The notes under the pieces were generated by a model. It saw only the letters and a program-made list of their open reading frames with translations. It made no database searches and was not told the DNA's origin. 64,000 nucleotides of DNA from Betaproteobacteria bacterium. GTDB taxonomy: Bacteria; Pseudomonadota; Gammaproteobacteria; Burkholderiales; Rhodocyclaceae. Position 1 is the first letter of the stretch; every line of letters begins with the position of its first letter. Positions 7,086-22,307 of the stretch are shown here, piece after piece. The DNA is taken from contig WRMF01000009.1 in NCBI GenBank assembly GCA_009777245.1, positions 1 through 64,000 on the forward strand, in the 5' to 3' direction. The translations under genes and the position numbers were made by a program.

Positions 7086-7823
7086 CTATGAATCTCCCCA
7101 CAAGCCTTGCAGAATGGCAAGCGCGGCGAGGCTTGCGGTTTCGGTGCGGAGAATGCGGGGGCCAAGTTGGATCGGATAAAAACCGGCCTTCCTTGCGGCA
7201 TCAATTTCCATCGGGTCAAAGCCGCCTTCCGCGCCTGCGAGCAGCGTGATTTCCGTCCCGGGCGCGGGACGATCCAAGGTGTGAATACGCTGTTCCGTGC
7301 CTGGCAACAGAAGCAGTTTCAGGCCGGGCAAGGCGCTTCCCGCTTCCCGCAACCAGTTTTCCAACGAGGCAACGGGCGCGACTTCCGGCAGACGGTTGCG
7401 TCCGCATTGCTCGCATGCGGCAATGGCAATTTCCCGCCAGCGCGTGTTTCGCTTTACCGCCCGTTCACCGTCAAGTCTCAATACGCTCCGCCGTCCCTCT
7501 AGCGGCAGAAAGGCGCGCACACCCAATTCCACCGCCTTTTGCAAGGTGTAATCCATTTTTTCACCGGCTTGCAGGGTTTGCGCGAGACGGACAAAAAGAG
7601 GCGATTCGCGCTCAATTGGGCGATGCTCTCCAAGTTTGACCTCAACCGCTCCCCGCTTGTTCGAGATAATTTCCGCCGGGTACTCGCCGCCCGTCCCGTC
7701 AAAAAGCGCCAGAAGCGATCCCGGCTTTAGGCGAAGGACGTTTGCCGCGTGATGCGCCGCTTTTGGCGGCAGTTCAAGCGTGCCAGCCGACAGGGACGCG
7801 CAGAAAAAACGGGGCGCTAACAC
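7086..7823 (-). CDS. rsmE: 16S rRNA (uracil1498-N3)-methyltransferase RsmE
   Basis: RsmE methylates U1498 of 16S rRNA using S-adenosylmethionine. The family signature is clear: an N-terminal PUA-like RNA-binding part (RFFC...LPPKAAHHAANVLRL), then the SPOUT knot with LLAGAEGGFDPMEI and LGPRILRTETA near the C-terminus. The frame is open further upstream into rnfH, but a GTG at 7823 gives a 245-residue protein starting MLAPRFFC, the usual length and N-terminus. That start lies 7 bases after the rnfH stop. The ribosome site is weak, so the start is probable rather than certain. Confidence 0.93.
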   Translation of the reverse strand: MLAPRFFCASLSAGTLELPPKAAHHAANVLRLKPGSLLALFDGTGGEYPAEIISNKRGAVEVKLGEHRPIERESPLFVRLAQTLQAGEKMDYTLQKAVELGVRAFLPLEGRRSVLRLDGERAVKRNTRWREIAIAACEQCGRNRLPEVAPVASLENWLREAGSALPGLKLLLLPGTEQRIHTLDRPAPGTEITLLAGAEGGFDPMEIDAARKAGFYPIQLGPRILRTETASLAALAILQGLWGDS

Positions 7824-7830
7824 GTCAGTG

Positions 7831-8148
7831 TCATGCAGCGGGTTCTTTGCCCGCTGTTTTTTTCTGCGCGATCTTTTCCGCTCTGGCGGCGCGGACAGCT
7901 TTGGGATCGGCAAGCAACGGACGATAGATTTCCACCCGGTCACGGTCGCGCAGAACGGCATCCGGTTTGGCGAGTTTGGAGAAAATGCCGAATTTGCCGC
8001 CATCAGGGTCTATCTGCGGATATTTTTCCGGCAGACCGGAGGCGTGTACGGCATCTATCAGAGTACTGCCGACGGGAAGACGCAAGGCGACGATCTCCTG
8101 CTTTTCCGGCAGGGCGTAGACTACTTCGACGGAAATGGTGTCAGACAT
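7831..8148 (-). CDS. rnfH: RnfH family ubiquitin-like protein
   Basis: This 105-residue protein has the beta-grasp pattern of the RnfH/UPF0125 (RatB) family: ISVEVVYALPEKQEIVALRL, then GSTLIDAVHASGL, KFGIFSKLAKPDAVLRDRDRVEIYRPL, and a basic Ala/Lys-rich tail. Its biochemical role is not established. Its start overlaps the ratA stop by 8 bases, the widespread ratA-rnfH pairing, and it precedes rsmE. The ion-pumping rnf genes of this genome are 38 kb away, so the name reflects family membership, not a shown link. Confidence 0.88.
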   Translation of the reverse strand: MSDTISVEVVYALPEKQEIVALRLPVGSTLIDAVHASGLPEKYPQIDPDGGKFGIFSKLAKPDAVLRDRDRVEIYRPLLADPKAVRAARAEKIAQKKTAGKEPAA

Positions 8149-8584
8149 GATTTGTCCCGTAAATTTGCTCCGCCCGTTTTACAAAGGCGTCAATGAGGGT
8201 ATTGGCAATGTGGCTGAAAACAGGACCGATGACCTTTTCCAGCAAGCGACTGGAGAATTCGTAATGCAACTGCAATTCAACCTTGCACGCCTTGTCGTTC
8301 AATGCCTTGAAGCGCCATGTTCCGTCCAGTTTTTTGAACGGGCCGTCCACCAGACGAATCAGCATCAAACCCGGAAATTCCTTTTCGTTCTCGGTGGTGA
8401 AATGCGCCTTTACGCCGCGATAGCGGATGTGAAGCGTGCCGATGGTCTTTTTGTCGTCACGAAAGCGACATTCCGTCTGGCCGCACCAGGGCAGGAATTC
8501 CGGGTAATCTTCGCAGCGATCCACCAACTCGAACATCTGCCGATCCGAGTGGGCGAGGAGCACCGATTTTTCAACCGTAGGCAT
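8141..8584 (-). CDS. ratA: RatA/Coq10-type START-domain protein
   Basis: This 147-residue protein belongs to the polyketide cyclase/START-like family that includes E. coli RatA and mitochondrial Coq10. Visible family features are the N-terminal [20 protein letters not shown], then [12 protein letters not shown] and the C-terminal helix [20 protein letters not shown] that closes the lipid pocket. RatA has been described as a ribosome-association inhibitor, and Coq10 homologues bind ubiquinone; which applies here cannot be told. The ATG at 8584 (MPTVEKS) is chosen over an upstream extension that would run into the divergent smpB start region. Confidence 0.88.
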
Positions 8585-8633: not shown

Positions 8634-9089
8634 ATGAGTATCATCTTCAACAAAAAAGCCCTGCACGACTACTTTATCGAGGAAAAATACGAAGCAGGCA
8701 TTGCGCTGGAGGGCTGGGAAGTCAAATCCATCCGCGCGGGCAAGGCGCATATCAAGGAGGCATACGTGCTCGTCAAAAAAGGGGAAATCTGGCTCTTTGG
8801 CATGCATGTCACGCCGATGGCGACTGCTTCCACCCATATCCACCCTGATCCGACGCGCACCAGAAAGCTGCTTTTGCGCGAACATGAAATCTCAAAGCTG
8901 ATCGGCAAGGTGGAGCGCGCCGGTTATACTCTGGTTCCGCTGAATCTGCATTACTCGCGTGGCCGTATCAAGGCGGAAATCGGTCTGGCGAAAGGAAAAA
9001 AGCAGCATGACAAGCGCGAGGACGCAAAGGAAAAAGACTGGGCGCGGGAAAAACAACGCTTGATGCGTGAGAAAGTGCGGGCAGGATAG
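8634..9089 (+). CDS. smpB: SsrA-binding protein SmpB
   Basis: SmpB binds tmRNA and brings it to stalled ribosomes for trans-translation. The 151-residue protein shows the oligonucleotide-binding barrel with [19 protein letters not shown], then [28 protein letters not shown], and the basic C-terminal tail ([17 protein letters not shown]) that folds in the mRNA channel. The start at 8634 (MSIIFNKK) gives the usual length. The frame is open 17 codons upstream, but that would overlap the divergent ratA start. No tmRNA gene was seen in the window. Confidence 0.96.
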
Positions 9090-9173
9090 GTTATCATGCT
9101 ATCCGGTCATGATTCGCTGGCATATCGCGCTCCCGGGCGGGACTGTCGGCATTGTTTTAAAAAGGAGATTTCA

Positions 9174-11796: not shown

Positions 11797-11839
11797 CAAA
11801 TCTCGGCATAATAAATTGATTTTTTTGAAGGAGAACATC

Positions 11840-12397
11840 ATGAAAGTTAAGGCAGTTTTGTTGATCTTGTGCGCTCTATCAACAGCTGGTGCGGAACAGA
11901 CGCAGCAGGTGGTGGAGATGCAGCCGGGTTTGTGGGAACTGCGCTTGTTGAAGATGGCAATGGATGGCGAAGACTGGTTGGAACAGCAGCGAGCAAAGAC
12001 GCGCACGGAGCAGGAACGCCAGATGCAATTGCCACCTGGGCAACGCCGACAAGTTAGAGATCCGCTGGTCTTTCGCTGGTGCGAGAGAGCTGGCGAGACA
12101 ATGCTTGATGAATGGCTAATTTCGCAAAATGTGTTGGGCAAGGATGATGAGTGTATGCCGCCCAAGGTGATCGGCAACGGCAAGCGGATAATGGCCGAGA
12201 GAATCTGCACAGGTTATACAATGAAAATAGAGACGGCAATGCCAAATAAAACAAACGTAGAGATGATTGTAACATTTGTATTTCCTGAACCTGGCGGATA
12301 CACGATGGTACAGGAGATGCACATGAAGTTTCTTGACAGCGACTGCGGTGGCGTTGCCCCGTTCAAACGTCCAACAAGCGGGGCGGGTATGCCGTGA
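11840..12397 (+). CDS. DUF3617-like exported protein
   Basis: A good ribosome site (GAAGGAGA) precedes the ATG at 11840. The 185-residue product has a signal peptide (MKVKAVLLILCALSTAGA) and then the DUF3617-like opening QQVVEMQPGLWELRL. Two spaced cysteines (in RWCERAGE and DDECMPPK) and a third in RICTGYTMKIETAM match the family habit of exported small beta proteins that start 'MQPGLWE'. Function unknown. It is the last chromosomal gene before the cassette array and is 433 bases from the first attC. Confidence 0.7.
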   Translation: MKVKAVLLILCALSTAGAEQTQQVVEMQPGLWELRLLKMAMDGEDWLEQQRAKTRTEQERQMQLPPGQRRQVRDPLVFRWCERAGETMLDEWLISQNVLGKDDECMPPKVIGNGKRIMAERICTGYTMKIETAMPNKTNVEMIVTFVFPEPGGYTMVQEMHMKFLDSDCGGVAPFKRPTSGAGMP

Positions 12398-12830: not shown

Positions 12831-12900
12831 GCCTGACTTTGCGCTCAAGCTGGACAGCCCCGCCTGCGGCGGGTCTGCCGCTTGGCTTTGAACGTTAGGC
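12831..12900 (+). other. attC site 1 (70-bp type)
   Basis: The left core is GCCTGAC and the right core is GTTAGGC. Inside, CAAGC..GGACAG pairs with CTGCCGCTTG around a CCCGCC-TGC-GGCGGG tip. It is nearly identical to the sites at 16736 and 22238. Confidence 0.85.
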
Positions 12901-12946
12901 AGCGCAGCCTTTCATGTAACGACGCAAACCCTTCGGAGATCAAAAC

Positions 12947-13333
12947 ATGAAACTTGGTTACACCATTCTTTACGTTGAAGATGTCGCCAAAACACTCGGG
13001 TTTTACGAGCAGGCTTTTGGATTGAAACGAAAGTTTTTGCATGAAAGTGGCGATTTCGGCGAACTGGACACAGGGAACACCGCGCTTGCATTTTCATCGC
13101 GCCGCCTGATGAAGCAACTGGGTAAAAATCCTTCTCCACCAGATAGCGAAGCGCCTTGCTTTGAAATCGCGCTGGTGACCGATGACGTTGCAGTTGCGCT
13201 CAAGCAGGCGATTCTGGCAGGCGCTCGTCTGGTGCAAGACGTCGAGGAAATGGCTTGGGGTCAAACGACCGCCTATGTCGCCGACCCTGATGGCTATCTC
13301 GTCGAAATATGCTCGCCGGTTATTGAGGATTAA
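12947..13333 (+). CDS. VOC-superfamily (glyoxalase/bleomycin-resistance-like) protein, cassette 1
   Basis: The 128-residue protein has the paired beta-alpha-beta-beta-beta pattern of vicinal-oxygen-chelate proteins: LGYTILYVEDVAKTLGFYEQAFG at the N-terminus and a second unit ending VADPDGYLVEICSP, with a Glu in the usual metal-ligand position. Members include glyoxalase I, antibiotic-binding and dioxygenase proteins, and the substrate here cannot be read. The gene starts 46 bases after the attC core and fills its cassette. VOC proteins are recurrent cargo of integron arrays, and a second one lies at 16320. Confidence 0.85.
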   Translation: MKLGYTILYVEDVAKTLGFYEQAFGLKRKFLHESGDFGELDTGNTALAFSSRRLMKQLGKNPSPPDSEAPCFEIALVTDDVAVALKQAILAGARLVQDVEEMAWGQTTAYVADPDGYLVEICSPVIED

Positions 13334-13372
13334 GGATCATATGTAGAAGTTCCAACTTGATCTGACAATCCT

Positions 13373-13446
13373 CGCTCCGGCAAGCGGAGGTGGTATACTT
13401 TGCGGATCGTGCGTTCGATTGAGCGTGTGTTCGGTTTCGCCAAGCG
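13373..13446 (+). promoter_or_regulatory. Conserved pre-attC module, copy A
   Basis: This 74-base stretch precedes attC 2 and recurs before five other 88-bp attC sites. It holds a small stem (CGCT..AGCG) and TGG-TATACT at 13391-13399, an extended -10-like box pointing to the next cassette. No -35 is evident. Confidence 0.45.
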
Positions 13447-13534
13447 TCCTAACAACATGTTCAACCCCGCTCCCTTCGGTCGCTGGACACCCAATCGCTG
13501 CGCGCTTGGGTGCCGGTTAACATAAACGTTAGGA
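13447..13534 (+). other. attC site 2 (88-bp type)
   Basis: The left core is TCCTAAC and the right core is GTTAGGA. The inner boxes TGTTCAACC and GGTTAACA pair, then ACCCAAT/GCTTGGGT-like arms continue the hairpin. Confidence 0.88.
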
Positions 13535-13579
13535 GGCACAGACTTCTCAAGACAGGCTGTCTATGTATAGTTAAACATC

Positions 13580-14071
13580 ATGGAACTCAAAGGCGCGCTC
13601 ACAAATCGAGACCTTCGCTCCGCAGCATGGCTGCATGTTGCGCCGCGCAAGGCATTTGCGTTCCTTGGGCTTCTTGTTCTTGCACTAGCGCTTTGGGCTT
13701 TATGGCTTGCCTTCTTCGGCTCAAAACAAGCCCCTAGCTGGAAGTGGGCGCTGTTGGCATTTCTTGTGTACTTGTTGGCGCACTACTCCCTTTATGTTCC
13801 GTATCGTCTGAGGCGCTACTTCCGCCAGTACAAAGCGCTTCAAAAAGAGCAATTTCTCTCCCCAACGGACATTGGCCTCATGGTATCAACCGAGAACGTA
13901 AAAGGAATAATTCCCTGGTCTGATTTGCTCCGCTGGAAAGAGAACAAGGTTCTCTTCATGCTCTACGTCGCCGACGACATGTACTACCTAGTTCCAAAGC
14001 GCTTCTTTGCAAATGCAGCGGACGTTCAGGAGTTTCGCGGTATTCTTCAAAGCAAGGTCACGTGCAAATGA
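13580..14071 (+). CDS. YcxB-like membrane protein, cassette 2
   Basis: The 163-residue protein has two adjoining hydrophobic segments (about residues 25-47 and 55-73), a short basic linker (YRLRRYFRQYKALQ), and then a cytoplasmic beta-rich tail: LMVSTENVKGIIPWSDLLRWKENKVLFML followed by YYLVPKRFFANAADVQEFRGIL. That tail matches the YcxB-like C-terminal domain seen in many small membrane proteins of unknown function. It is the only gene in its cassette and begins 45 bases after the core. Its operon partners, if any, depend on cassette order. Confidence 0.7.
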   Translation: MELKGALTNRDLRSAAWLHVAPRKAFAFLGLLVLALALWALWLAFFGSKQAPSWKWALLAFLVYLLAHYSLYVPYRLRRYFRQYKALQKEQFLSPTDIGLMVSTENVKGIIPWSDLLRWKENKVLFMLYVADDMYYLVPKRFFANAADVQEFRGILQSKVTCK

Positions 14072-14074
14072 CCC

Positions 14075-14098
14075 CTACCCTGCCATTCAACCCGGACG
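14075..14098 (+). other. Possible attC half-site relic
   Basis: Directly after the cassette 2 stop the sequence CCATTCAACCCGGACG occurs. It nearly equals the left half of attC 4 (14773-14788), but no matching right half follows; instead the conserved pre-attC module begins. It may be the scar of a replaced or fused attC. Confidence 0.4.
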
Positions 14099-14170
14099 CT
14101 CTGGCAAGCAGAGGTGATATTATTCGCGGGTCGTGCGTTCGGTTGGGCTTATGTTCGGTTTCGCCAAGCG
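14098..14170 (+). promoter_or_regulatory. Conserved pre-attC module, copy B
   Basis: This copy keeps GCGGGTCGTGCGTTCGGTTG and TTCGGTTTCGCCAAGC. Its -10-like box reads TGA-TATTAT (14115-14123), so the hexamer differs from copy A but stays close to TATAAT. Confidence 0.45.
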
Positions 14171-14258
14171 TCCTAACACCATGTTCAACCCCGCTCCCTT
14201 CGCTCGCTGGACACCCAATTGCTACGCGCTTGGGTGCCGGTTAACATAAACGTTAGGC
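14171..14258 (+). other. attC site 3 (88-bp type)
   Basis: TCCTAAC at the left and GTTAGGC at the right, with the TGTTCAACC/GGTTAACA inner boxes intact. It differs from attC 2 at a handful of bases. Confidence 0.88.
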
Positions 14259-14268
14259 TATTCAATCC

Positions 14269-14748
14269 ATGAGTTCCTTCATTCACATCGCGGATAAAAT
14301 CCAAGAGGCCGCCATCCGCAAGAACGGCCTTAAAATGGGACGCCGCAAGATTCGCGGCGTGTACGCAGTTCCCGTGGTTCCAGATTACGCGACTACTCAC
14401 CAGTGGGCACGCGAGCTGAAGCGGAGAGGTATGCAGGTATTAATCTGCGTTCAGTTTCGTATTCCGGATACGGAGATCGTCTGGGTCGGTCAATACAGTG
14501 GCGAAAAAATCCAAATGACTGCATCGGAAGCTGTGGCAAGCGTTCTTGAACACAGTGACCCAATGGGTCTTGAGGTACTCATCCCTCGCAAGGTTGCACC
14601 AAGCGAAATTACTCGTATCTATCCCGCCCCCAGGCTTGTCGGCTGGCGCTACTATCCTTCGGCAAAGGGCAAGAAGCCGTTCTGCCATTGTCGGTATTGC
14701 AATCGCGGTGAAATCCGCGCAAGTCGGTTAATTCGGGAGGAATCTTGA
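14269..14748 (+). CDS. Cassette 3 protein of unknown function
   Basis: The 159-residue protein is soluble, with no signal or membrane segment. It opens MSSFIHIADKIQEAAIRKNG, continues with GVYAVPVVPDY and THQWARELKRRG, and ends with a cysteine cluster (FCHCRYCNRGEIRASRL) that could bind a metal. The opening resembles a group of uncharacterised bacterial proteins with 'HIAD...GVF-MPVVP..-HQW-RELKRRG' blocks that I remember but cannot name. It begins 10 bases after the attC core with no strong ribosome site, a common trait of cassette genes. No activity is assigned. Confidence 0.75.
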   Translation: MSSFIHIADKIQEAAIRKNGLKMGRRKIRGVYAVPVVPDYATTHQWARELKRRGMQVLICVQFRIPDTEIVWVGQYSGEKIQMTASEAVASVLEHSDPMGLEVLIPRKVAPSEITRIYPAPRLVGWRYYPSAKGKKPFCHCRYCNRGEIRASRLIREES

Positions 14749-14761
14749 AAGGTCGCGTTTG

Positions 14762-14818
14762 GCCTAACATTGCATTCAACCCGGACGGCTTTGCCGTCGG
14801 TTAACTTTGGCGTTAGGT
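14762..14818 (+). other. attC site 4 (57-bp type)
   Basis: GCCTAAC on the left, GTTAGGT on the right, with the simple stem TTCAACCCG...CGGTTAAC and a GGCTTTGCC tip. It is the most canonical and shortest site of the array. Confidence 0.9.
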
Positions 14819-14854
14819 TCTACATCCAACCCGTTGCATCATAGGAGTACCGAA

Positions 14855-15265
14855 TTGAGCTGGGACGTGTTTCTCCATAAGTTCACGCGGCTGTATCGAA
14901 CCGTCGGGGAGATTCCGGACGACGAGCAGCCACTTCCTCTTGGTTCACTTTCCGAAGTGCAAGCGGCTATCTCAGCCATCTTTCCCGGAACTAACTGGAG
15001 CGATCCTGTATGGGGTGTCTACGACAGCAAACTTGGCTCAATCGAGTTCAATGTTGGGAGAGACGACCCTGTGCAATGCTTGGGGCTTCACGTACGAGCA
15101 AGTGACACTATTGTTGGTGGAATTCTCCATCTATGCGAGCGCATGGGCTGCCAAGCCATAGACTCGACAGACAGCACCTTCCTTGATCAGTCGGAACACC
15201 CGGCTTCTGGCTTGGAGAAATTGCGTAAGTACAGAGATCAAGTCATCGGGAAGAGTGGGGTCTAA
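14855..15265 (+). CDS. Cassette 4 protein of unknown function
   Basis: I place the start at the TTG at 14855, which has AGGAG seven bases upstream and gives MSWDVFLHKF. A start further upstream would begin inside attC 4. The 136-residue product shows SWDVF, IPDDEQPLPLGS, FPGTNWSDPVWGVYD, IEFNVGRDDPVQCLGLHVRAS and ILHLCERMGCQAIDS. This pattern recurs in uncharacterised bacterial proteins I recall but cannot name; some may be immunity-like. It is acidic and soluble. No enzyme motif is visible. Confidence 0.72.
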   Translation: MSWDVFLHKFTRLYRTVGEIPDDEQPLPLGSLSEVQAAISAIFPGTNWSDPVWGVYDSKLGSIEFNVGRDDPVQCLGLHVRASDTIVGGILHLCERMGCQAIDSTDSTFLDQSEHPASGLEKLRKYRDQVIGKSGV

Positions 15266-15289
15266 GCGTATGACTTCGCAACCGCATCC

Positions 15290-15363
15290 CGCTCTGGCAA
15301 GCAAAGGCGGTATAATTTGCGGGTCGTGCGTTCGGTTGAGCGTGAGTACGGTTTCGCCAAGCG
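15290..15363 (+). promoter_or_regulatory. Conserved pre-attC module, copy C
   Basis: The -10-like hexamer here is a consensus TATAAT (15311-15316). The preceding trinucleotide is CGG rather than TGN, so this copy lacks the extended element. Confidence 0.45.
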
Positions 15364-15448
15364 TCCTAACAACATGCTCAACCCCGCTCCCTTCGGTCGC
15401 TGGACAGTCCCGCTATAGCAGGTCTGCCGATTAGCATAAACGTTCGGT
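15364..15448 (+). other. attC site 5 (degenerate 88-bp type)
   Basis: The left half matches its relatives, but the right half has changed to CAGTCCCGCTATAGCAGGTC and GATTAGCA, and the right core reads GTTCGGT. A second GTTAAGG lies 16 bases later. Recombination through this site is likely impaired. Confidence 0.65.
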
Positions 15449-15468
15449 TGGCATAACGTTAAGGAACA

Positions 15469-16110
15469 ATGGAACTTACGTCGCTCTTCATAGCAACGCT
15501 CAAGCCCCTGCTGTGGCTCTTACCGCTGCTGATCGTTGTCGCCATTCTCAAGAGACCTTGGTTCAAGGGCACTATGGGAGAGCGCCGAGTCAAACGCCTA
15601 ATCGGGAGGCAACTGAACCCGTCTATTTATAGAGAGTTCTCGAACGTTACTGTACAAACCGATGATGGAACCACCCAGATCGACCACATCTACGTCTGTC
15701 CTTTCGGCGTTCTCGTGATCGAGACAAAGAATATGAGCGGTTGGATTTTCGGTGGAAGGAATCAAGCCCAGTGGACACAAACCATCTACCGGAAAAAGGT
15801 GAAATTTCAGAACCCACTGCGACAGAACTACCGCCACATCAAAGCGCTTGAGTCGCTGCTTGACCTTCCAACCGAGTGCTTCAAGTCTATTGTCGTTTTC
15901 GCTGGCAATTGCACGCTCAAAACAGAAATGCCAGACGAAGTCTGTAGAACTTCCGATCTTATCAAGTATATCTACTCAATTGACGCCCGGATATTTTCGG
16001 ATGCGCAGGTTGACGACATCTGCAACAAGATAATATCATTTCGACTTGAACCGACCCGGCAAGTCCATCGTGACCATGTTGAAAACCTCAAGCGTAGGCA
16101 TCGTGCGTAA
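15469..16110 (+). CDS. NERD-domain protein, cassette 5
   Basis: The 213-residue protein has one N-terminal membrane helix (LLWLLPLLIVVAIL, residues 13-26) followed by a NERD (nuclease-related) domain: GTMGERRVKRLIGRQL, then TTQIDHIYVCPFGVLVIETK, where D-E-x-K matches the restriction-endonuclease-like active site. NERD proteins are predicted nucleases whose targets are mostly unknown. The gene begins 5 bases after the second core-like motif downstream of degenerate attC 5. A membrane-tethered nuclease fits a defence or signalling role, but that is inference. Confidence 0.85.
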   Translation: MELTSLFIATLKPLLWLLPLLIVVAILKRPWFKGTMGERRVKRLIGRQLNPSIYREFSNVTVQTDDGTTQIDHIYVCPFGVLVIETKNMSGWIFGGRNQAQWTQTIYRKKVKFQNPLRQNYRHIKALESLLDLPTECFKSIVVFAGNCTLKTEMPDEVCRTSDLIKYIYSIDARIFSDAQVDDICNKIISFRLEPTRQVHRDHVENLKRRHRA

Positions 16111-16115
16111 CATCC

Positions 16116-16192
16116 CGCTCTGGCAGGCGGAGGTGGTATACTTTGCGGGTCGTGCGTTCGGTTGGGTTTGTGTTCGGCACTCCGCCCAGGCG
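16116..16192 (+). promoter_or_regulatory. Conserved pre-attC module, copy D
   Basis: TGG-TATACT at 16134-16142 is followed by TTGCGGGTCGTGCGTTCGG. The 3' part differs from other copies (CACTCCGCCCAGG in place of TTTCGCCAAG). Confidence 0.45.
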
Positions 16193-16280
16193 TCCTAACA
16201 CTATGCTCAACCCCGCTCCCTTCGGTCGCTGGACACCCAATCGCTACGCGCTTGGGTGCCGGTTAACATAAACGTTAGGC
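16193..16280 (+). other. attC site 6 (88-bp type)
   Basis: TCCTAAC left core, GTTAGGC right core. The left inner box reads TGCTCAACC, one base from attC 2, while GGTTAACA is kept. Confidence 0.88.
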
Positions 16281-16319
16281 AGCCAAACCACCGCATCAGC
16301 TTTCACCAAGGAGTCTCCA

Positions 16320-16709
16320 ATGCTTGTCCAGTCGCTATCCCCCTGCATCACCACTACCAAGGTGACGGAATCCCGCGATTTCTATGTGAAGCACTTTGGA
16401 GCCAAGGTCACATTCGATTGTGGCTGGTACGTTAATCTCGAATTTGGCAAGGGGGCTTCCCTCCAATTCATGACCCCGCAGCCCGATCATCCAGTCTGCA
16501 ATCCTGTCGGCTTGACGTACAACTTTTGCGTTGCAGATGTCGATGCTGAGTTTCAATTGCTTGCGGCTTCCGGTCTGGCTGCCCTCATGCCCTTGGAAGA
16601 TCATTCTTGGGGAGATCGCGGCTTCGCAGTTCAAGACCCAAACGGAGTTGTTCTGTATATCTACTCTGAACGGGAACCTGACCCCGAGTTCAAGCAGTAC
16701 TACAAATAA
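16320..16709 (+). CDS. VOC-superfamily protein, cassette 6
   Basis: A strong AAGGAG lies upstream of the ATG. The 129-residue protein has the two VOC repeats: SLSPCITTTKVTESRDFYVK and, in the second half, WGDRGFAVQDPNGVVLYIYS with the closing acidic ligand. The central NLEFGKGASLQFMTPQ supports a compact binding protein like those for bleomycin or fosfomycin, but the ligand is not predictable. It is clearly different in sequence from the VOC protein of cassette 1, so the two are separate acquisitions rather than a duplication. Confidence 0.85.
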   Translation: MLVQSLSPCITTTKVTESRDFYVKHFGAKVTFDCGWYVNLEFGKGASLQFMTPQPDHPVCNPVGLTYNFCVADVDAEFQLLAASGLAALMPLEDHSWGDRGFAVQDPNGVVLYIYSEREPDPEFKQYYK

Positions 16710-16735
16710 CACCATGCGCACCAAATTGGCACCAC

Positions 16736-16805
16736 GCCTAACTTTGCGCTCAAGCCGGACAGCCCCGCCTGCGGCGGGGCTGCCGCTTAGCTTTGAACGT
16801 TAGGA
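16736..16805 (+). other. attC site 7 (70-bp type)
   Basis: GCCTAAC left core (the intact form of the GCCTGAC seen at sites 1 and 10) and GTTAGGA right core, with the CCCCGCC-TGC-GGCGGGG tip. Confidence 0.9.
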
Positions 16806-16825
16806 AACACATCCCGGAGTCACCT

Positions 16826-17437
16826 ATGAAACTAGCACCCATTTCATTTCAGAATGTTGTAACCGCTGTTGCGACTTGCATTTCTGTCGTAGCTGTTTTC
16901 TTTTCTTGGCAGCTAGTCAAGGCTTCATGGCAGCAAGCTGAGATTTCAAGTCAGCAAGTCGAAATCACCCGAGATCACTATCGAAGGTCAGTAACTCCAA
17001 TTCTCAACGTAACCCCATATGCAGAAGGAAAGGGGCGTCGCAACGGAATCTACCTTTCAAACGATGGCCTCGGCCCTGCAATCATCAAAGAATTCTCAGT
17101 CAAATCAGGGAGCACTGTGGTTAGTGGCTTCGAGTCAGAACAATGGCATGATATACTGACGGCAGCGGACATAAATCCTGCTTGCTTTGAACTCGGTTGG
17201 CCTAGAGCTGATGCGGCAATCAGCGCTAGTGAAAAGGATCATGTTCTTTTATCTATCACGAAAGCAGAGGGTCACGACATTTGTTACCCAGAACTCATCA
17301 AGTTAATCGGTGATCAAAGTATCGACATTTCTATTCAATATGAGTCCATCTACGGAGAACCGAAGCGTGTTTTGGCAAGTTCAAAAATCAAGTCCAAAAC
17401 AGTAGATGCGTTACGCCGCCAGATCTTCGGAAAATGA
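16826..17437 (+). CDS. Membrane-anchored protein of unknown function, cassette 7
   Basis: The ATG at 16826 has CGGAG upstream and lies 20 bases after the attC core. An in-frame start at 16793 would overlap the attC. The 203-residue product begins with one membrane helix (VVTAVATCISVVAVFF, near residues 10-26), then a Gln-rich coiled-coil-like stretch (QQAEISSQQVEITRDHYRR) and a soluble beta-rich domain (TPILNVTPYAEG, IYLSNDGLGPAIIKEFSV). Such single-helix proteins with a 'NDGxGPAxI' domain are common hypotheticals in accessory DNA. Function unknown. Confidence 0.72.
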   Translation: MKLAPISFQNVVTAVATCISVVAVFFSWQLVKASWQQAEISSQQVEITRDHYRRSVTPILNVTPYAEGKGRRNGIYLSNDGLGPAIIKEFSVKSGSTVVSGFESEQWHDILTAADINPACFELGWPRADAAISASEKDHVLLSITKAEGHDICYPELIKLIGDQSIDISIQYESIYGEPKRVLASSKIKSKTVDALRRQIFGK

Positions 17438-17492
17438 CCCGTTCATTCTCTTGCGCTGCATCCGTTCAATGTTCGGCCTCGCGATCACATCC

Positions 17493-17566
17493 CGCTCCGG
17501 CAAGCGGAGGTGGTATGCTTTGTGGCTCGCGCGTTCGGTTGAGCGTGTGTTCTGTTTCGCCAAGTG
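17493..17566 (+). promoter_or_regulatory. Conserved pre-attC module, copy E
   Basis: The box reads TGG-TATGCT (17511-17519). Elsewhere the copy diverges by single bases (TGTGGCTCGCGCG for TGCGGGTCGTGCG). Confidence 0.42.
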
Positions 17567-17654
17567 TCCTAACAACATGTTCAACCTCGCTCCCTTCGGT
17601 CGCTGGACACCCAATCGCTTCGCGCTTGGGTGCCGGTTAACATAAACGTTAGGC
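17567..17654 (+). other. attC site 8 (88-bp type), left border of the restriction-modification cassette
   Basis: TCCTAAC left core and GTTAGGC right core with both inner boxes intact (TGTTCAACC, GGTTAACA). Confidence 0.88.
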
Positions 17655-17724
17655 TATGTACGAAGATCTGCTACCTTGGTTTTTAAGTGATAGCGGGTTG
17701 GCACGACCGAGGGGGCGGGTGCGA

Positions 17725-17761
17725 TTGACAGAACCTCCGAAATATTCGATAATCGAATATT
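17725..17761 (+). promoter_or_regulatory. Methyltransferase promoter overlapped by a perfect palindrome
   Basis: TTGACA (17725-17730) and GATAAT (17748-17753) are 17 bases apart, a near-consensus sigma-70 promoter. The -10 lies inside a perfect 21-base palindrome (17741-17761): arms AATATTCGAT and ATCGAATATT around one central A. A protein bound there would block the promoter. The predicted transcript start is near 17760, 24 bases before the methyltransferase ATG. Which protein binds (the cassette controller or the methyltransferase itself) is not shown by sequence. Confidence 0.75.
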
Positions 17762-17783
17762 ATCACTAGAGACTCGCTCCACA

Positions 17784-20120
17784 ATGAATCTCCAGCAAGC
17801 ATTAACGGATGAATTCGAAGGACTAATTGGATTCAGTGTAGATTTGCCGATCGAATACAGGCGGGTGTTTAAGGCTTTGTGCTGTCATCTGGCGAAACGC
17901 AAACTACGAACTCGTAGCGAACGTCGAAATATATTGATTTCACATATCAACTCGAAGTTTGATATCAACCGAGAGGGCATTGCTGCAGTTCTTGCTCGGG
18001 CAGCGTCCCGTGGGCTAGTCTTCAATTTTCATGAGAAAAACCTTATCCAGAGAGCGTTCGATTTGCGCGATAAGGCAGCTTTTGCAGATGCTGTCAGGAA
18101 GGCAAGAAACGATCACGGTCTCCATAGTTTACTTTGCCAGCTCTTTACTCCCGCCACCGAAGAGGAAACACTCGCTCATTTTCGAGCAGAAGTCACGAAT
18201 CCATCAAGACTTCGCGTGGAAAAGGGAGTGCGCCCGATAGGTAATGAAATTCTTCTTTCTGCACTGTCCGCGTTTGTTTTTTCTGCAGCAGATGAAGAGG
18301 TAATGCATGAATTCTTCGATTCCGCATACAGCCATGAAAGATACGAGCGGTCTTTCTGGCTGCAGTTGAGAAAGCTACAACCACAGTTCTACTCGCGAAC
18401 GAGGACACTGGATATTGCTAAGGTTGACCAAAATTTTGCCGATTCGTGCGGCTCACTTGAAACGCTGCGATTAATTCTATTCGGCCAGACGGCATTGAGC
18501 TATAAGATGCTCGAAAATCACGGGTATTTAGCCTATTGGATAGAACCGCTAGTTATTGACGGACGAAATGTAACATGGGAAATTTGCTCCGACATCATGC
18601 TTTTTGCTGAAAAGCATGATGAGGTAATGCTCACCAACACATACTTTAAAACCAGCCAAATCAAAGCCGAGACCGTCTCTTACGTAAACGGCATTGATGA
18701 GTCTAATGCCCGATTTGACCTTGCAAATGAAGGGTTTACATACAAAGACATATTTGTCTGCATTCCCTCGACTGGCTCTCTTGTCGGCTCTGAGTCGCTT
18801 CTACTTCTTTTTCAAAAGAACAAGAGGGACGAAACATTAATCCCATGCCCTGCATGCAGAACGCACAATGTTCAAGGAAATTCCTACCCGAGCTTGGGTG
18901 TACGCAGTTGGGAGTGTCGAAATATTCTTTGCCCGGATAGAAGCAAATACAATCGAGGAAAGCGATATTCGTTTAAATCCTTGCTGATGCAGGAAGCTAT
19001 TGATGAGATAGAGAGCCAAATTTCACCAGAGTCGATTCGAAGATGGTCGCGAGACATTCAGATTGGTCGCACAGCTGACGATGCCGTCGAAATGTTAATT
19101 CGCCATTATTCATTGCATGGAGATGGGGTATATCTTTTTGGTATCAATGATCCGAATGACTCGCTAGGCCGTCGAATTGTGCGACACGAAGATATTATGA
19201 CTACCGAAGAGAACCTCGCATCGTGCTTCTTCGACTCGCATTGGTTCAAGAGGTATGCATTTTCTTCGGACGTAGGAGGGCGGGAGAACGCCAGTAGTAT
19301 CAATCAATGCTGCATTGGTTCCTTGACTATGGTTCACGGCGACTCATGTACAGTGCTCGAAGGATTTCCGGATAACTATTTCGATGGAGCAGTGACTTCC
19401 CCTCCCTATTTCAACGCACGAGAGTATTCTCAATGGTCGAACATCTATTGCTATTTGCACGACATGCTCTCTATTGCAAAGAGTTGCTTTAGAGTCCTCA
19501 AACCAGGGGCAACATATCTTTATAATATTTTCGACTACTTCGACAATGAGCGCAGTATTGTTTTTTCAGCCATGGGCGAGAAACGTCTAGTACTAAGTGC
19601 CTACACTGCGGACTTGTTCCGACGTGTAGGATTTCAGCTGGCCGGAGCCATAACTTGGGATAAAGGTGAAATCGAAGGAAAACGTGGGTTCAATGCTGGT
19701 AATTTTTCACCATATTATCAGGCTCCATTTAATTGCTGGGAACATATTCTCGTATTTGTAAAACCGCCGACGGATATGGCACAGAGAGTACTGAGCAACA
19801 TGCCAGCAGTCCTCCGTGCTCAACCAGTGAACAAAATGGTAAAGGGCAAGAATACACACGGCCACACCGCACCTTTCCCGGCGGATATTCCAAATCTCTT
19901 ACGTCCCTTCTTGCCAAAAGGGGGGAGAGTACTAGATCCCTTTGGAGGAAGCGGCACAACTGCTCGTGCGCTCGATGGCTTCGTGAGCGAGACGATCTGT
20001 ATCGAGAAGAAGAAGGAGTATTTTGACCTCGCTCTTAATCTCTTTATGTCCTATCGTAGCGCACTGAATCAGGGAACACATCAGGCGATTCTATCCAGAG
20101 AGGAAATCGTTGGCGCATGA
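17784..20120 (+). CDS. Site-specific DNA methyltransferase, beta class (probably m4C or m6A), cassette 8
   Basis: The 778-residue protein is modular. The first 340 residues match nothing I know. A zinc-ribbon-like region follows (CPAC at 355-358 and C378/C383). The catalytic domain is C-terminal: motif IV TSPPY (538-542) comes before the AdoMet-binding motif DPFGGSGTT (718-726), the order of beta-class amino-methyltransferases; TSPPY favours N4-cytosine but does not prove it. ETICIEKKKEYFDLA after motif I is typical. It converges on the HNH gene with a 40-base tail-to-tail overlap. Base composition is lower in G+C than the flanking chromosome, pointing to foreign origin. Confidence 0.88.
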   Translation: MNLQQALTDEFEGLIGFSVDLPIEYRRVFKALCCHLAKRKLRTRSERRNILISHINSKFDINREGIAAVLARAASRGLVFNFHEKNLIQRAFDLRDKAAFADAVRKARNDHGLHSLLCQLFTPATEEETLAHFRAEVTNPSRLRVEKGVRPIGNEILLSALSAFVFSAADEEVMHEFFDSAYSHERYERSFWLQLRKLQPQFYSRTRTLDIAKVDQNFADSCGSLETLRLILFGQTALSYKMLENHGYLAYWIEPLVIDGRNVTWEICSDIMLFAEKHDEVMLTNTYFKTSQIKAETVSYVNGIDESNARFDLANEGFTYKDIFVCIPSTGSLVGSESLLLLFQKNKRDETLIPCPACRTHNVQGNSYPSLGVRSWECRNILCPDRSKYNRGKRYSFKSLLMQEAIDEIESQISPESIRRWSRDIQIGRTADDAVEMLIRHYSLHGDGVYLFGINDPNDSLGRRIVRHEDIMTTEENLASCFFDSHWFKRYAFSSDVGGRENASSINQCCIGSLTMVHGDSCTVLEGFPDNYFDGAVTSPPYFNAREYSQWSNIYCYLHDMLSIAKSCFRVLKPGATYLYNIFDYFDNERSIVFSAMGEKRLVLSAYTADLFRRVGFQLAGAITWDKGEIEGKRGFNAGNFSPYYQAPFNCWEHILVFVKPPTDMAQRVLSNMPAVLRAQPVNKMVKGKNTHGHTAPFPADIPNLLRPFLPKGGRVLDPFGGSGTTARALDGFVSETICIEKKKEYFDLALNLFMSYRSALNQGTHQAILSREEIVGA

Positions 20121-20938
20121 GAGTATTTGCTGCCAGGCTCAATTTCATATAAACCGATTTGCTGGAGCCATCTAGCCATTGCCCAAGCTTCTTCAAATCT
20201 AATGTTCGCCATCGTGAGACCATACTCACGACAAAGGTTATGAAAACATCTGTAATTGCTAGGTCGATGCACAAACAAAAGCCACATAAGACCAGCTTCA
20301 GCAGTCAGGAATGTCAGTCCACCGTTTGCGTGCGAAGGTCTGCGGATAACATTGTGTCTTCTGCATCGAAGAATCATGTTGTCCAGGCGGTCGGCAACAT
20401 CTTCAAGGTCTTTCTGAGTACGTATACTTCCAGACGTTAGTGCGTTATATAAATCCCCCGAAATATTATCCAGGAGTTGCGCCTGTACGCCTGTGTAGTT
20501 GTGCCGATTAAGTAGGCCTACCAATCTCGCCTTAATTTCGGCCACAATGCGTGCGCAGTCTTGCCGAACCAAGTCTGGAATCTCTTTTTGCACAGATAAA
20601 CCCACGTCTCCAACAAACTCTTTCGGAATTACGTGGTCAGCCTGCAGGTCTACGCGAGTACCGCAATCAGCGCATTTTCCATTTTGCATAAAATGCCAGG
20701 TACGCACTGCTTCCCAGCATTTTCGGGGTGGAAAGTGGCGTTGAAATGATTTTTTGGACGCTATTGAGGTGCCAACCTGAGACGGATTAAGGTTTCCCAA
20801 AGTGGTCGCTGTTACCTCTCGCCAAGATATTATCCCTTCTTCAATAAGCTCCTCAAGGAACATTTGCCAGTGCTCCTCTGTCCAATCGGCTCCGTTTGCC
20901 GGATATTCAGAAGCATGCTGTTCTCCCTCACCAGTCAT
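20081..20938 (-). CDS. HNH-type endonuclease, presumed restriction enzyme of the cassette
   Basis: The 285-residue protein (ATG at 20938, MTGEGEQH) contains an HNH nuclease core: CADCGTRVDLQADHVIPKEF (Cys89, Cys92, Asp101-His102) and NMILRCRRHN (Cys192, His195), a zinc-supported beta-beta-alpha metal fold. The N-terminal part (DWTEEHWQMFLEELIEEGIISW) may recognise DNA or form the dimer. Its start overlaps the controller stop by 11 bases, so the two are read from one transcript. Placement between a controller and a methyltransferase makes restriction the natural role; the target site is unknown. The frame is open 34 codons further upstream inside the controller, but MTGEGE is the better start. 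Confidence 0.82.
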   Translation of the reverse strand: MTGEGEQHASEYPANGADWTEEHWQMFLEELIEEGIISWREVTATTLGNLNPSQVGTSIASKKSFQRHFPPRKCWEAVRTWHFMQNGKCADCGTRVDLQADHVIPKEFVGDVGLSVQKEIPDLVRQDCARIVAEIKARLVGLLNRHNYTGVQAQLLDNISGDLYNALTSGSIRTQKDLEDVADRLDNMILRCRRHNVIRRPSHANGGLTFLTAEAGLMWLLFVHRPSNYRCFHNLCREYGLTMANIRFEEAWAMARWLQQIGLYEIEPGSKYSHAPTISSLDRIA

Positions 20939-21203
20939 TCGATGTCTCCTCGGTGTGTCCTTCGAGAGTTGCTTCAAATTTCGAAACAAATTCAGATAAG
21001 CCAATACCCAAAGCAGCACAGAAAATGCGGAGTTCAGCAACGTCTAGTCGTCTTTCCCGACGCTCAATCTTGCTTATCAGAGACTGCTCGACACCCAGCC
21101 GCGTAGCCAACTCGACTTGAGTAAGGCCAGCCTCTTTCCGCGCTGTGCGCAGCAATGAGACGAGCGCCGAGTAATCATCGCTGTGTAGGGGAATTGGAAT
21201 CAT
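20928..21203 (-). CDS. XRE-family controller (C) protein of the restriction-modification cassette
   Basis: The 91-residue protein is almost entirely a Cro/CI-type helix-turn-helix domain: LVSLLRTARKEAGLTQVELA, then TRLGVEQSLISKIERRERRL and DVAELRIFCAALGIGLSEFV. This size and fold match the C proteins that delay nuclease expression until methylation is complete. I start it at the ATG at 21203 (MIPIPLHS). A longer frame to 21320 would run across the presumed operator. It is co-directional and overlapping with the HNH gene, the classic C-R arrangement. Confidence 0.85.
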   Translation of the reverse strand: MIPIPLHSDDYSALVSLLRTARKEAGLTQVELATRLGVEQSLISKIERRERRLDVAELRIFCAALGIGLSEFVSKFEATLEGHTEETSNDW

Positions 21204-21244
21204 TTTGCTAAGATAAAGCCGATTTTTGAATATGCCAAAATCGA
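21203..21244 (-). promoter_or_regulatory. Controller-gene promoter with operator-like inverted repeat
   Basis: Reading the minus strand, TATCTT lies six bases before the controller ATG, so a transcript would start at or next to the ATG and be leaderless, as reported for several C-protein genes. Just upstream, arms CGATTTT and AAAATCG (21220-21243, plus strand) flank a 10-base centre with GAATAT, a plausible binding site for the controller. Confidence 0.5.
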
Positions 21245-21536
21245 CTATTATTGCCATTCGAAACGCGGACTCGTTGGTCTTGTGTCTTGCGCACAAGCGG
21301 ACGGCCTGCGACCGGCGCATACCTTGTACGCAAGATATTCAAGTTATCACATCTCAGACGTTGACCGCTTACCCGATGAGGTCGTTCCAATGACCTACAA
21401 GGATGGCCTCCTTCAACACCCTGCTGGCTTCACAGTGACTCTCGGCAAAACATCCGGCAACCTCTCCGGCGGGAGAGTCGAACACAAGCGTGTTAGCGAG
21501 TTTACTGTAGAGGAGAGGAGAAAAAACATTCCAAGA
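21245..21536 (+). other. Right part of the restriction-modification cassette, no convincing gene
   Basis: A GTG-initiated frame from 21282 runs through attC 9 to 21686 and includes DVDRLPDEVVPMTYKDG and HPAGFTVTLGKTSG, which look protein-like. It has no ribosome site and ends in attC-derived sequence. It could be the remains of an earlier cassette. Confidence 0.3.
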
Positions 21537-21612
21537 TCGACTGGTAAGCGAAAGCGGTATACTTTACGGATTGCGCGTTCGGTTGGCCTTGTACCTGAGC
21601 ACTACCCATGTG
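21537..21612 (+). promoter_or_regulatory. Conserved pre-attC module, copy F (diverged)
   Basis: TATACT at 21558-21563 is kept, with GCGCGTTCGGTTG after it. The remainder (CCTTGTACCTGAGCACTACCC) departs from the other five copies. Confidence 0.4.
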
Positions 21613-21700
21613 TCACAACAACATGTTCAACCCCGCTCCCTTCGCTCGCTGGACATCCAATCGCTTCGCGCTTGGGTGCCGGTTAACATAAACGTTAGGT
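21613..21700 (+). other. attC site 9 (88-bp type), right border of the restriction-modification cassette
   Basis: The left core is altered to TCACAAC, whereas the rest (TGTTCAACC, GGTTAACA, right core GTTAGGT) is intact. Confidence 0.82.
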
Positions 21701-21718
21701 CACCAGAAAAACCCCAGT

Positions 21719-22243
21719 ATGCATATTTCAACAAATCTTCCGGGTTGCGTTCTTCGCTCATGGCGGCCTGAGGACAAAGCTGCCCTGCTGCTGCACGCCA
21801 ACAATCGCAATATCTGGCGCAACCTCACCGAGATGTTCCCGCATCCATACACTGAAACCAACGCGGTTCAGTGGCTCTCTATCGCATCGAGTCCCGGTAC
21901 CAGCATTTATCTAGCCATTGAGGTCGGCGGTGAGGCTGTTGGTGGCATTGGCATCATCGCAGGCACAGGCATCGGCCAGTACACCGGCCAGTTTGGCTAT
22001 TGGTTGGGTGAGTCATTGTGGGGCAGAGGTATCGCTACAGCATCGGCCAGTGCCTTGGCAACACATGCACTTGCTCAACCGCAGTTCGTGCGTCTCGAAG
22101 CGCCTGTGTTTGCCTGGAATCCTGCTTCCATGCGAGTGCTGGAAAAAGTTGGCTTCATCAGAGAAGGCGTCCTGCGCAGGAGCGTATTCAAAGATGGGCA
22201 ACTTATTGACAATGTTATGTATGCCAAAGTACGCGATGCCTGA
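21719..22243 (+). CDS. GNAT-family N-acetyltransferase (RimJ/RimL type), cassette 9
   Basis: The 174-residue protein has the GNAT order of motifs: LRSWRPEDKAALLLHANN at the N-terminus, YLAIEVGGEAVGGIGI, GYWLGESLWGRGIATASASA (the acetyl-CoA pyrophosphate loop RGIATA), LEAPVFAWNPASMRVLEKVG and FIREGVLRRSVFKDGQ. This is the RimJ/RimL branch, which acetylates protein N-termini or small molecules including some drugs; the substrate is unknown. The stop codon falls within the left core of attC 10, as is common for tightly packed cassettes. Confidence 0.9.
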   Translation: MHISTNLPGCVLRSWRPEDKAALLLHANNRNIWRNLTEMFPHPYTETNAVQWLSIASSPGTSIYLAIEVGGEAVGGIGIIAGTGIGQYTGQFGYWLGESLWGRGIATASASALATHALAQPQFVRLEAPVFAWNPASMRVLEKVGFIREGVLRRSVFKDGQLIDNVMYAKVRDA

Positions 22244-22307
22244 CTTTGCGCTCAAGCCGGACAGACCCGCCTGCGGCGGGTTTGCCGCTTGGCTTTGAAC
22301 GTTAGTT
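22238..22307 (+). other. attC site 10 (70-bp type), end of the array
   Basis: The left core is GCCTGAC. The right core reads GTTAGTT, departing from consensus at the outermost bases, as expected where the last cassette joins non-integron DNA. The mfd ATG follows after two bases. Confidence 0.82.

Follow-up and report, generated by a model that had tools for sequence, protein, structure and literature searches.

For many integron cassettes the encoded protein has no assigned function, and phage-defence genes in integrons have been reported. The locus described here raises the question of what two such cassettes carry and whether their products serve in conflict. They lie side by side in an array of attC-type sites within the window, by which we mean the whole stretch of 64,000 nucleotides that was analysed, and are called cassette 3 and cassette 4. 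A sequence-only reading had described two protein families with conservation-like blocks and no known role, and had judged defence or immunity functions worth testing for them in an array with restriction–modification (R-M) and nuclease-like genes.

We found ten attC-type sites in the array (window 12831-22304), all on one strand and of mixed length types (86, 67 and 57 bp); nine were detected by the R' end AACGTT[A/C]G and one (14761-14817) by eye. The bottom strands of nine sites were folded, each against 200 shuffles, and seven of the nine folds were matched or beaten by at most 9/200 shuffles. The site between the two genes has a fold z of -2.08, with 9/200 shuffles as good, while the outer sites on either side of the pair, which close cassettes 2 and 4, fold weakly and without excess over shuffles. 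At the close of cassette 4 the R' end has GTTCGG in place of GTTAGG, and some dozen bases further on there is a second GTTAAGG (window 15439-15460). On one side the array is flanked by the gene after nagZ (11816-12397, with a weak DUF3617 match) and on the other by mfd (from ~22311), the names nagZ and mfd being our reading of the translations. No integron integrase matched above the family cut-off in the host genome, which is 93.3% complete; only weaker recombinase matches were obtained, and the integrase model gave sub-cut-off matches in all 14 control genomes as well. The array looks like a set of attC sites without an integrase, unless that gene lies in the missing part of the genome.

Table 1. 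Features of cassettes 3 and 4 in the window
Feature	Position	Strand	Basis
attC site closing cassette 2 and opening cassette 3	14170..14255	+	86-bp type, R' end; 25/200 shuffles as good
Cassette 3 gene, 159-aa protein with predicted ART fold and CxCxxC-type tail	14269..14748	+	ORF, model, alignment
attC site closing cassette 3 and opening cassette 4	14761..14817	+	57-bp type, by eye and alignment
AGGAG, probable ribosome-binding site of cassette 4	14843..14847	+	By eye
Cassette 4 gene (TTG start), 136-aa acidic protein, putative orphan immunity protein	14855..15265	+	
attC site closing cassette 4	15363..15445	+	R' end, alignment; 59/200 shuffles as good

Cassettes 3 and 4 each hold a single gene between attC sites, and both are genuine single-gene integron cassettes (Table 1). 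Other cassettes of the array encode two glyoxalase-fold proteins, a YcxB protein, a NERD protein (E 1.6e-32) and a GNAT acetyltransferase, all assigned by Pfam, and a multi-gene R-M cassette of 4 kb (window 17650-21697) carries a type II methyltransferase (778 aa, model E 7e-93). The R-M and nuclease-like neighbours invoked by the sequence-only reading are therefore real. The R-M cassette also contains an HTH protein that matches control-protein models and, on the opposite strand, a 319-aa protein with an HNH-like motif by eye, which is probably the restriction enzyme. Cassettes 3 and 4 are mutually unrelated, stand-alone cargo. A single system made of both was considered and rejected: in the class samples both were matched only in the window's own genome, and no Myxococcota sample genome was matched by both, which is a partial test.

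The cassette 3 protein (159 residues) opens with MSSFIHIADK and ends in the tail FCHCRYC, so its open reading frame (ORF), HIAD opening and Cys-rich tail stand as previously described. For cassette 4, the longest ORF begins at a TTG (14807) inside the attC site and would give 152 residues. The 136-residue form claimed earlier begins at the TTG at 14855, with AGGAG seven bases upstream, and the aligned relatives begin at the same MS[W/Y]D, in agreement with this start; the protein has a pI of 4.9. Relatives of the cassette 3 protein were found at 47-49%, 43-44% and, for the others, 29-38% identity, and those of the cassette 4 protein at 59% (one relative) and 22-38%; because relatives at these identities exist, we regard both genes as coding and not as chance ORFs. 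Alignments of the relatives reveal that the blocks noticed in the single sequences are truly conserved in both families. The claim of no known role was also borne out: cassette 3 had no match in Pfam, NCBIfam, PADLOC or PHROGs, and cassette 4 matched no Pfam, NCBIfam or PADLOC model and no named immunity family, with a single match in PHROGs (E 0.092) to a family of unknown function.

The cassette 3 family is rare and basic, with a pI of 8.9-10.9 for residues 1-125. Among 84,980 species genomes scanned by pattern there were 107 matches, and five of these encode a relative; because such scans catch only relatives that keep the chosen blocks, these counts are lower bounds. A relative is present in one of 72,556 plasmid records and, within the class, in 2 of 274 genomes, the window's own included. 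We left out a doubtful third match in the class (genome G245), which lies within a 1108-aa frame at 21% identity (E 2.5e-4). Sampled genomes of Myxococcota (2/140, both already known) and Spirochaetota (4/149, three new) also carry relatives; four loci (L002, L011, L023, L033) are one contig and were counted once. Cassette 4 was found in its own genome only among 274 genomes of the class and 398 of the phylum, in 3/399 genomes of the order sample (its own and two distant matches, E 9e-9 and 2.4e-7) and in 4/188 Myxococcota; the matches in genomes G1065 and G680 have one internal stop each. Plasmid records with a cassette 4 relative numbered seven with the window protein as the query and eight with a Streptomyces relative, and all the carriers are Streptomyces except one Variovorax. 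The Streptomyces relative had no match in phage records, and in viral contigs four pattern scans matched 23, 3, 38 and 23 stretches, none of which encoded a relative. A housekeeping role was rejected for either gene, as only 2/274 and 1/274 genomes of the class, own included, carry cassettes 3 and 4, respectively.

Each family recurs, in one further phylum, as a cassette with a single gene and attC sites on both sides. In the spirochaete Breznakiella, the cassette 3 relative (L013 8001-8864) is the only gene between two attC-type repeats (7820-7976 and 8873-9053), the left one of which folds far better than its shuffles (z -3.95). A myxococcotal cassette 4 relative (L059 8578-8991) likewise stands alone between sites at 8394-8568 and 8984-9155, with fold z of -4.55 and -2.41, in an array of 17-18 attC-type sites in 17 kb (L059 1-17001). 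This recurrence between attC sites points to useful mobile cargo and not to chance ORFs. The window and Breznakiella proteins do not reflect a recent exchange, because they are 36% identical. We saw no array-like repeats around the cassette 3 relatives L005, L011, L012, L014 and L030-L032 or around the cassette 4 relative L006. The Breznakiella stretch (L013 1-16444) is chromosomal and forms a cassette array of varied single genes with many attC-type repeats, and the other cassettes of L059 include a DUF4272 protein and an MtlR-like protein. The available text of earlier papers reports integrons in Treponema (PMC3607928) and resistance cassettes with Spirochaetes-type attC sites in Proteobacteria (PMC8352920).

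In an alignment of nine cassette 3 sequences, which is gapped in the tail and in the loop that precedes position 30, the invariant residues include H6, I16, G20, P35, H44, Q45, W46 and E49, as well as V71, G100, R107, E113, G125, W126 and P130. The tail motif CxCxxC is kept in eight sequences and lost in one. Some relatives have a C-terminal extension with HEAT-type repeats, and the window protein ends before that part. The repeats lie above the Pfam cut-off in L014 (E 3.5e-12) and below it in two spirochaetes (2.2e-5, 9.8e-5), L012 (0.011) and L013 (0.18), and the Pfam scan found none in L005, L011 and L032. HEAT-fused relatives are encoded at L014 3357-4340, L030 1750-2613 and L031 2003-2863. 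In a Sorangium MAG (L015), which has two matches on the contig, the frame breaks after ~90 residues; this relative is absent from the nine-sequence alignment, and only its in-frame part was used in two other alignments.

An ADP-ribosyltransferase (ART) hypothesis for cassette 3 was noted from the sequence before structure prediction, because of H-I-A...I...G-L near the start and G-L-E-V-L-I-P later in the protein. The model, built on six aligned sequences, has a mean pLDDT of 72, with blocks of 61 to 96 in residues 1-121 and values below 50 in residues 122-159. Foldseek against the PDB placed DarT1 and Tpt1/KptA chains at ranks 1-18, with Tpt1/KptA at most of ranks 2-18, and CC0527 at rank 19; the best E was 5.1e-3, and no match reached 0.001. 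VIA also placed DarT1 first (Z 9.2, rmsd 3.0, 122 aligned), effectively tied with CC0527 (Z 8.9) and Tpt1 (Z 8.7) because matches within 1 Z count as tied, where a best Z of 7-8 is typical of models without a clear match. Among viral structure predictions four matches fell below 0.001, the best being an unnamed phage protein (E 1.9e-6), and those with a name include a DarT, a protein with a PARP domain and a putative RNA 2'-phosphotransferase. The cassette 3 profile had two weak matches to PDB sequences, one to a designed repeat protein (0.029) and the other to a chromatin protein (0.24), which were set aside. Comparison by hhalign with DarT (four sequences) and DUF952 (eight sequences) gave nothing, and the test had no power at this depth, because the control pair of DarT and DUF952 also failed. 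The sequence-only reading had named a confident fold match to a housekeeping enzyme as grounds for abandoning a defence role; no clear one appeared, and the best matches are a toxin, tRNA 2'-phosphotransferases and an uncharacterised protein. We have little doubt, from the model, that cassette 3 adopts an ART fold.

The fold prediction is accompanied by a putative active site. In all nine sequences a triad of H6, Y or F at position 32 (Y in two, F in seven) and E or Q at position 102 (E in five, Q in four) follows the expected order; in the window protein H6, Y32 and E102 lie on predicted strands 2-9, 31-35 and 101-105. The same order, H-Y-[QED], is described for this ART class in the available text of a paper on Arr (PMC8492726), and the three are candidate catalytic positions. 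Catalysis is in doubt because four of the nine sequences carry Q at position 102; we consider an active enzyme somewhat more likely than not. The cassette 3 protein, for which we infer catalysis, substrate and metal binding, would most likely be an NAD+-using ADP-ribosyltransferase of a family without a name. Its H-Y-[QED] site would be made up of H6 from the first strand, Y/F32 from the second strand and E/Q102 from a strand further along, and its basic surface and Cys-rich tail may bind a negatively charged partner such as a nucleic acid.

The cassette 4 model, predicted from a single sequence, failed with a pLDDT of 40. Thirteen context loci were compared (L006-L010, L050, L051, L053, L054 and L059-L062), in which L051, an incomplete relative, served for context only and the unannotated Streptomyces NBC_01384 was left out. 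SUKH/SMI1-KNR4 or barstar genes lie near the relatives at three of these loci (L006, L008, L050). Genes for DUF4240, 4253, 4259, 4265 or 5958 are found near all six annotated Streptomyces copies, which are close relatives and not independent; we take these families to be of immunity type and, like DUF6310 and DUF5953, conflict-related, an assignment that none of the papers found on them states. On the L008 plasmid six immunity-type names lie within ~3.3 kb of the cassette 4 relative, as compared to none among the other 42 features of the same 40-kb stretch and none among 36 in a control stretch of 49 kb. A Fic-family gene is also close to the L008 copy. At L053 (4183-10291) a same-strand run consists of a 1123-aa protein, a DUF5953 gene, a distant cassette 4 relative and another DUF5953 gene. 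The 1123-aa protein is large and exported, with a transglutaminase core and a C-terminal DUF6310, which suggests that the run combines a toxin with immunity genes; the locus looks undescribed.

Cassette 4 would encode an acidic protein of small size that blocks, by binding it, a toxin which rival bacteria deliver, and its gene would be carried without that of the toxin. An orphan immunity protein is our best reading, and we give it about an even chance. It might equally belong to the other small cytosolic proteins with a stress, regulatory or metabolic role outside immunity, for which we see a chance slightly short of even: the array of the window holds no toxin, no family was matched, and the surroundings of L054, L060, L061 and L062 are ordinary, with no immunity context by eye, although the neighbourhoods of L006, L008, L050 and L053 speak against it. 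The proposed immunity role thus finds moderate support for cassette 4 at the SUKH or barstar loci and at L053, but nothing similar at four or more ordinary loci. It is hardly credible that either ORF, or both, is spurious or a decayed cassette; the TTG start of cassette 4 and the sparseness of both families would fit, but conserved full-length relatives exist in several phyla.

For cassette 3, several roles were weighed against that of an ART without a named family. A DarT-like conflict protein, which would ADP-ribosylate DNA or RNA against phage or competitors as an abortive or conditional toxin, agrees with the first place of DarT1 in both PDB lists, with the basic charge and with the R-M and NERD genes of the array. 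Yet we found no Pfam match to DarT (PF14487), no PADLOC match, no relative in the viral contigs scanned and no macrodomain antitoxin of DarG type among ten window proteins scanned with Pfam, and beside the relatives there was neither a DarG-type antitoxin (neighbours by eye, four of them Pfam-scanned) nor a common partner gene by eye, so that this role is unlikely. A DarTG system as such was rejected, having no antitoxin. The prevalence of Tpt1/KptA in the Foldseek list and the variation between E and Q at position 102 would suit an RNA 2'-phosphate or end-processing enzyme of the Tpt1/KptA kind, or a catalytically dead binder of NAD+ or nucleic acid, which together we consider doubtful: Pfam gave no match to the Tpt1/KptA family, and the alignment runs from model residue 1 over Tpt1 chain 91-183 only, the N-terminal domain being missing. 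An Arr-like enzyme, inactivating a small molecule such as an antibiotic by ADP-ribosylation, is quite improbable. It has in its favour a similar length, the stand-alone cassette and the fact that Arr is itself an H-Y-[QED] ART known from integrons (available text of PMC8492726), but the third residue differs, Pfam gave no match to the Arr family, Arr is not among the best 50 VIA matches (which is not an exclusion), and a macromolecular partner is indicated by the basic charge and by the relatives fused to HEAT repeats. Pfam gave no match to DUF952 (PF06108) either. Since these searches placed cassette 3 in none of the DarT, Tpt1 and Arr families, we file it under the ART superfamily only, and judging from the model it is very likely a member of that superfamily without an assigned family. 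A role in defence is possible, because the ART superfamily includes conflict proteins (DarT) as well as RNA-processing enzymes (Tpt1); the earlier proposal of defence keeps this much for cassette 3.

As a joint explanation, cassette 3 as an ART of a family without a name and cassette 4 as an orphan immunity protein has, in our estimate, an even chance of being right. A more specific reading is speculative and rather unlikely: cassette 3 would represent a separate ART family, recognisable by HQW, by the CxCxxC tail and, in some members, by HEAT repeats, which acts without an antitoxin, modifies a nucleic acid or other anionic target in bacterial conflict and travels between phyla on integrons, while the same arrays spread orphan immunity proteins like cassette 4. 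In that case the protection kept in integrons would be directed at rival bacteria, besides phages and drugs. Cassette 3 gains a fold-level assignment, as a predicted ART outside the named subfamilies tested, and cassette 4 a likely class, that of orphan immunity proteins; both proteins can now be tested directly. If active, cassette 3 would be, as far as we know, an integron-borne ART of a kind other than Arr. Among the papers listed in literature searches that combined integron cassettes with phage defence, with immunity proteins, with ADP-ribosyltransferases or with these DUFs, in a collection without most subscription journals, we recognised none that describes either family.

Compared with known systems, cassette 3 resembles DarT, a DNA ADP-ribosyltransferase toxin, in predicted fold, whereas it is shorter and has the HQW and CxCxxC features. 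A true DarT match lies elsewhere in the host genome (contig C12:14738-15340, E 3.1e-54), not near the array. Only the C-terminal half of the tRNA 2'-phosphotransferase Tpt1/KptA shares the predicted cassette 3 fold, and CC0527, presumably a DUF952 protein, is similar in fold as well. Arr is of similar size, but its third residue is D84 where the cassette 3 family has E or Q, if the positions are taken as equivalent. Mixed immunity loci are described for polymorphic toxin systems in the available text of PMC3482391. Cassette 4 differs from such loci in standing alone in its cassette with no toxin in the array, but, like polymorphic-toxin immunity proteins, its relatives are found in clusters of mixed content that include SUKH and barstar genes and, in one case (L053), in a run that resembles a toxin operon.
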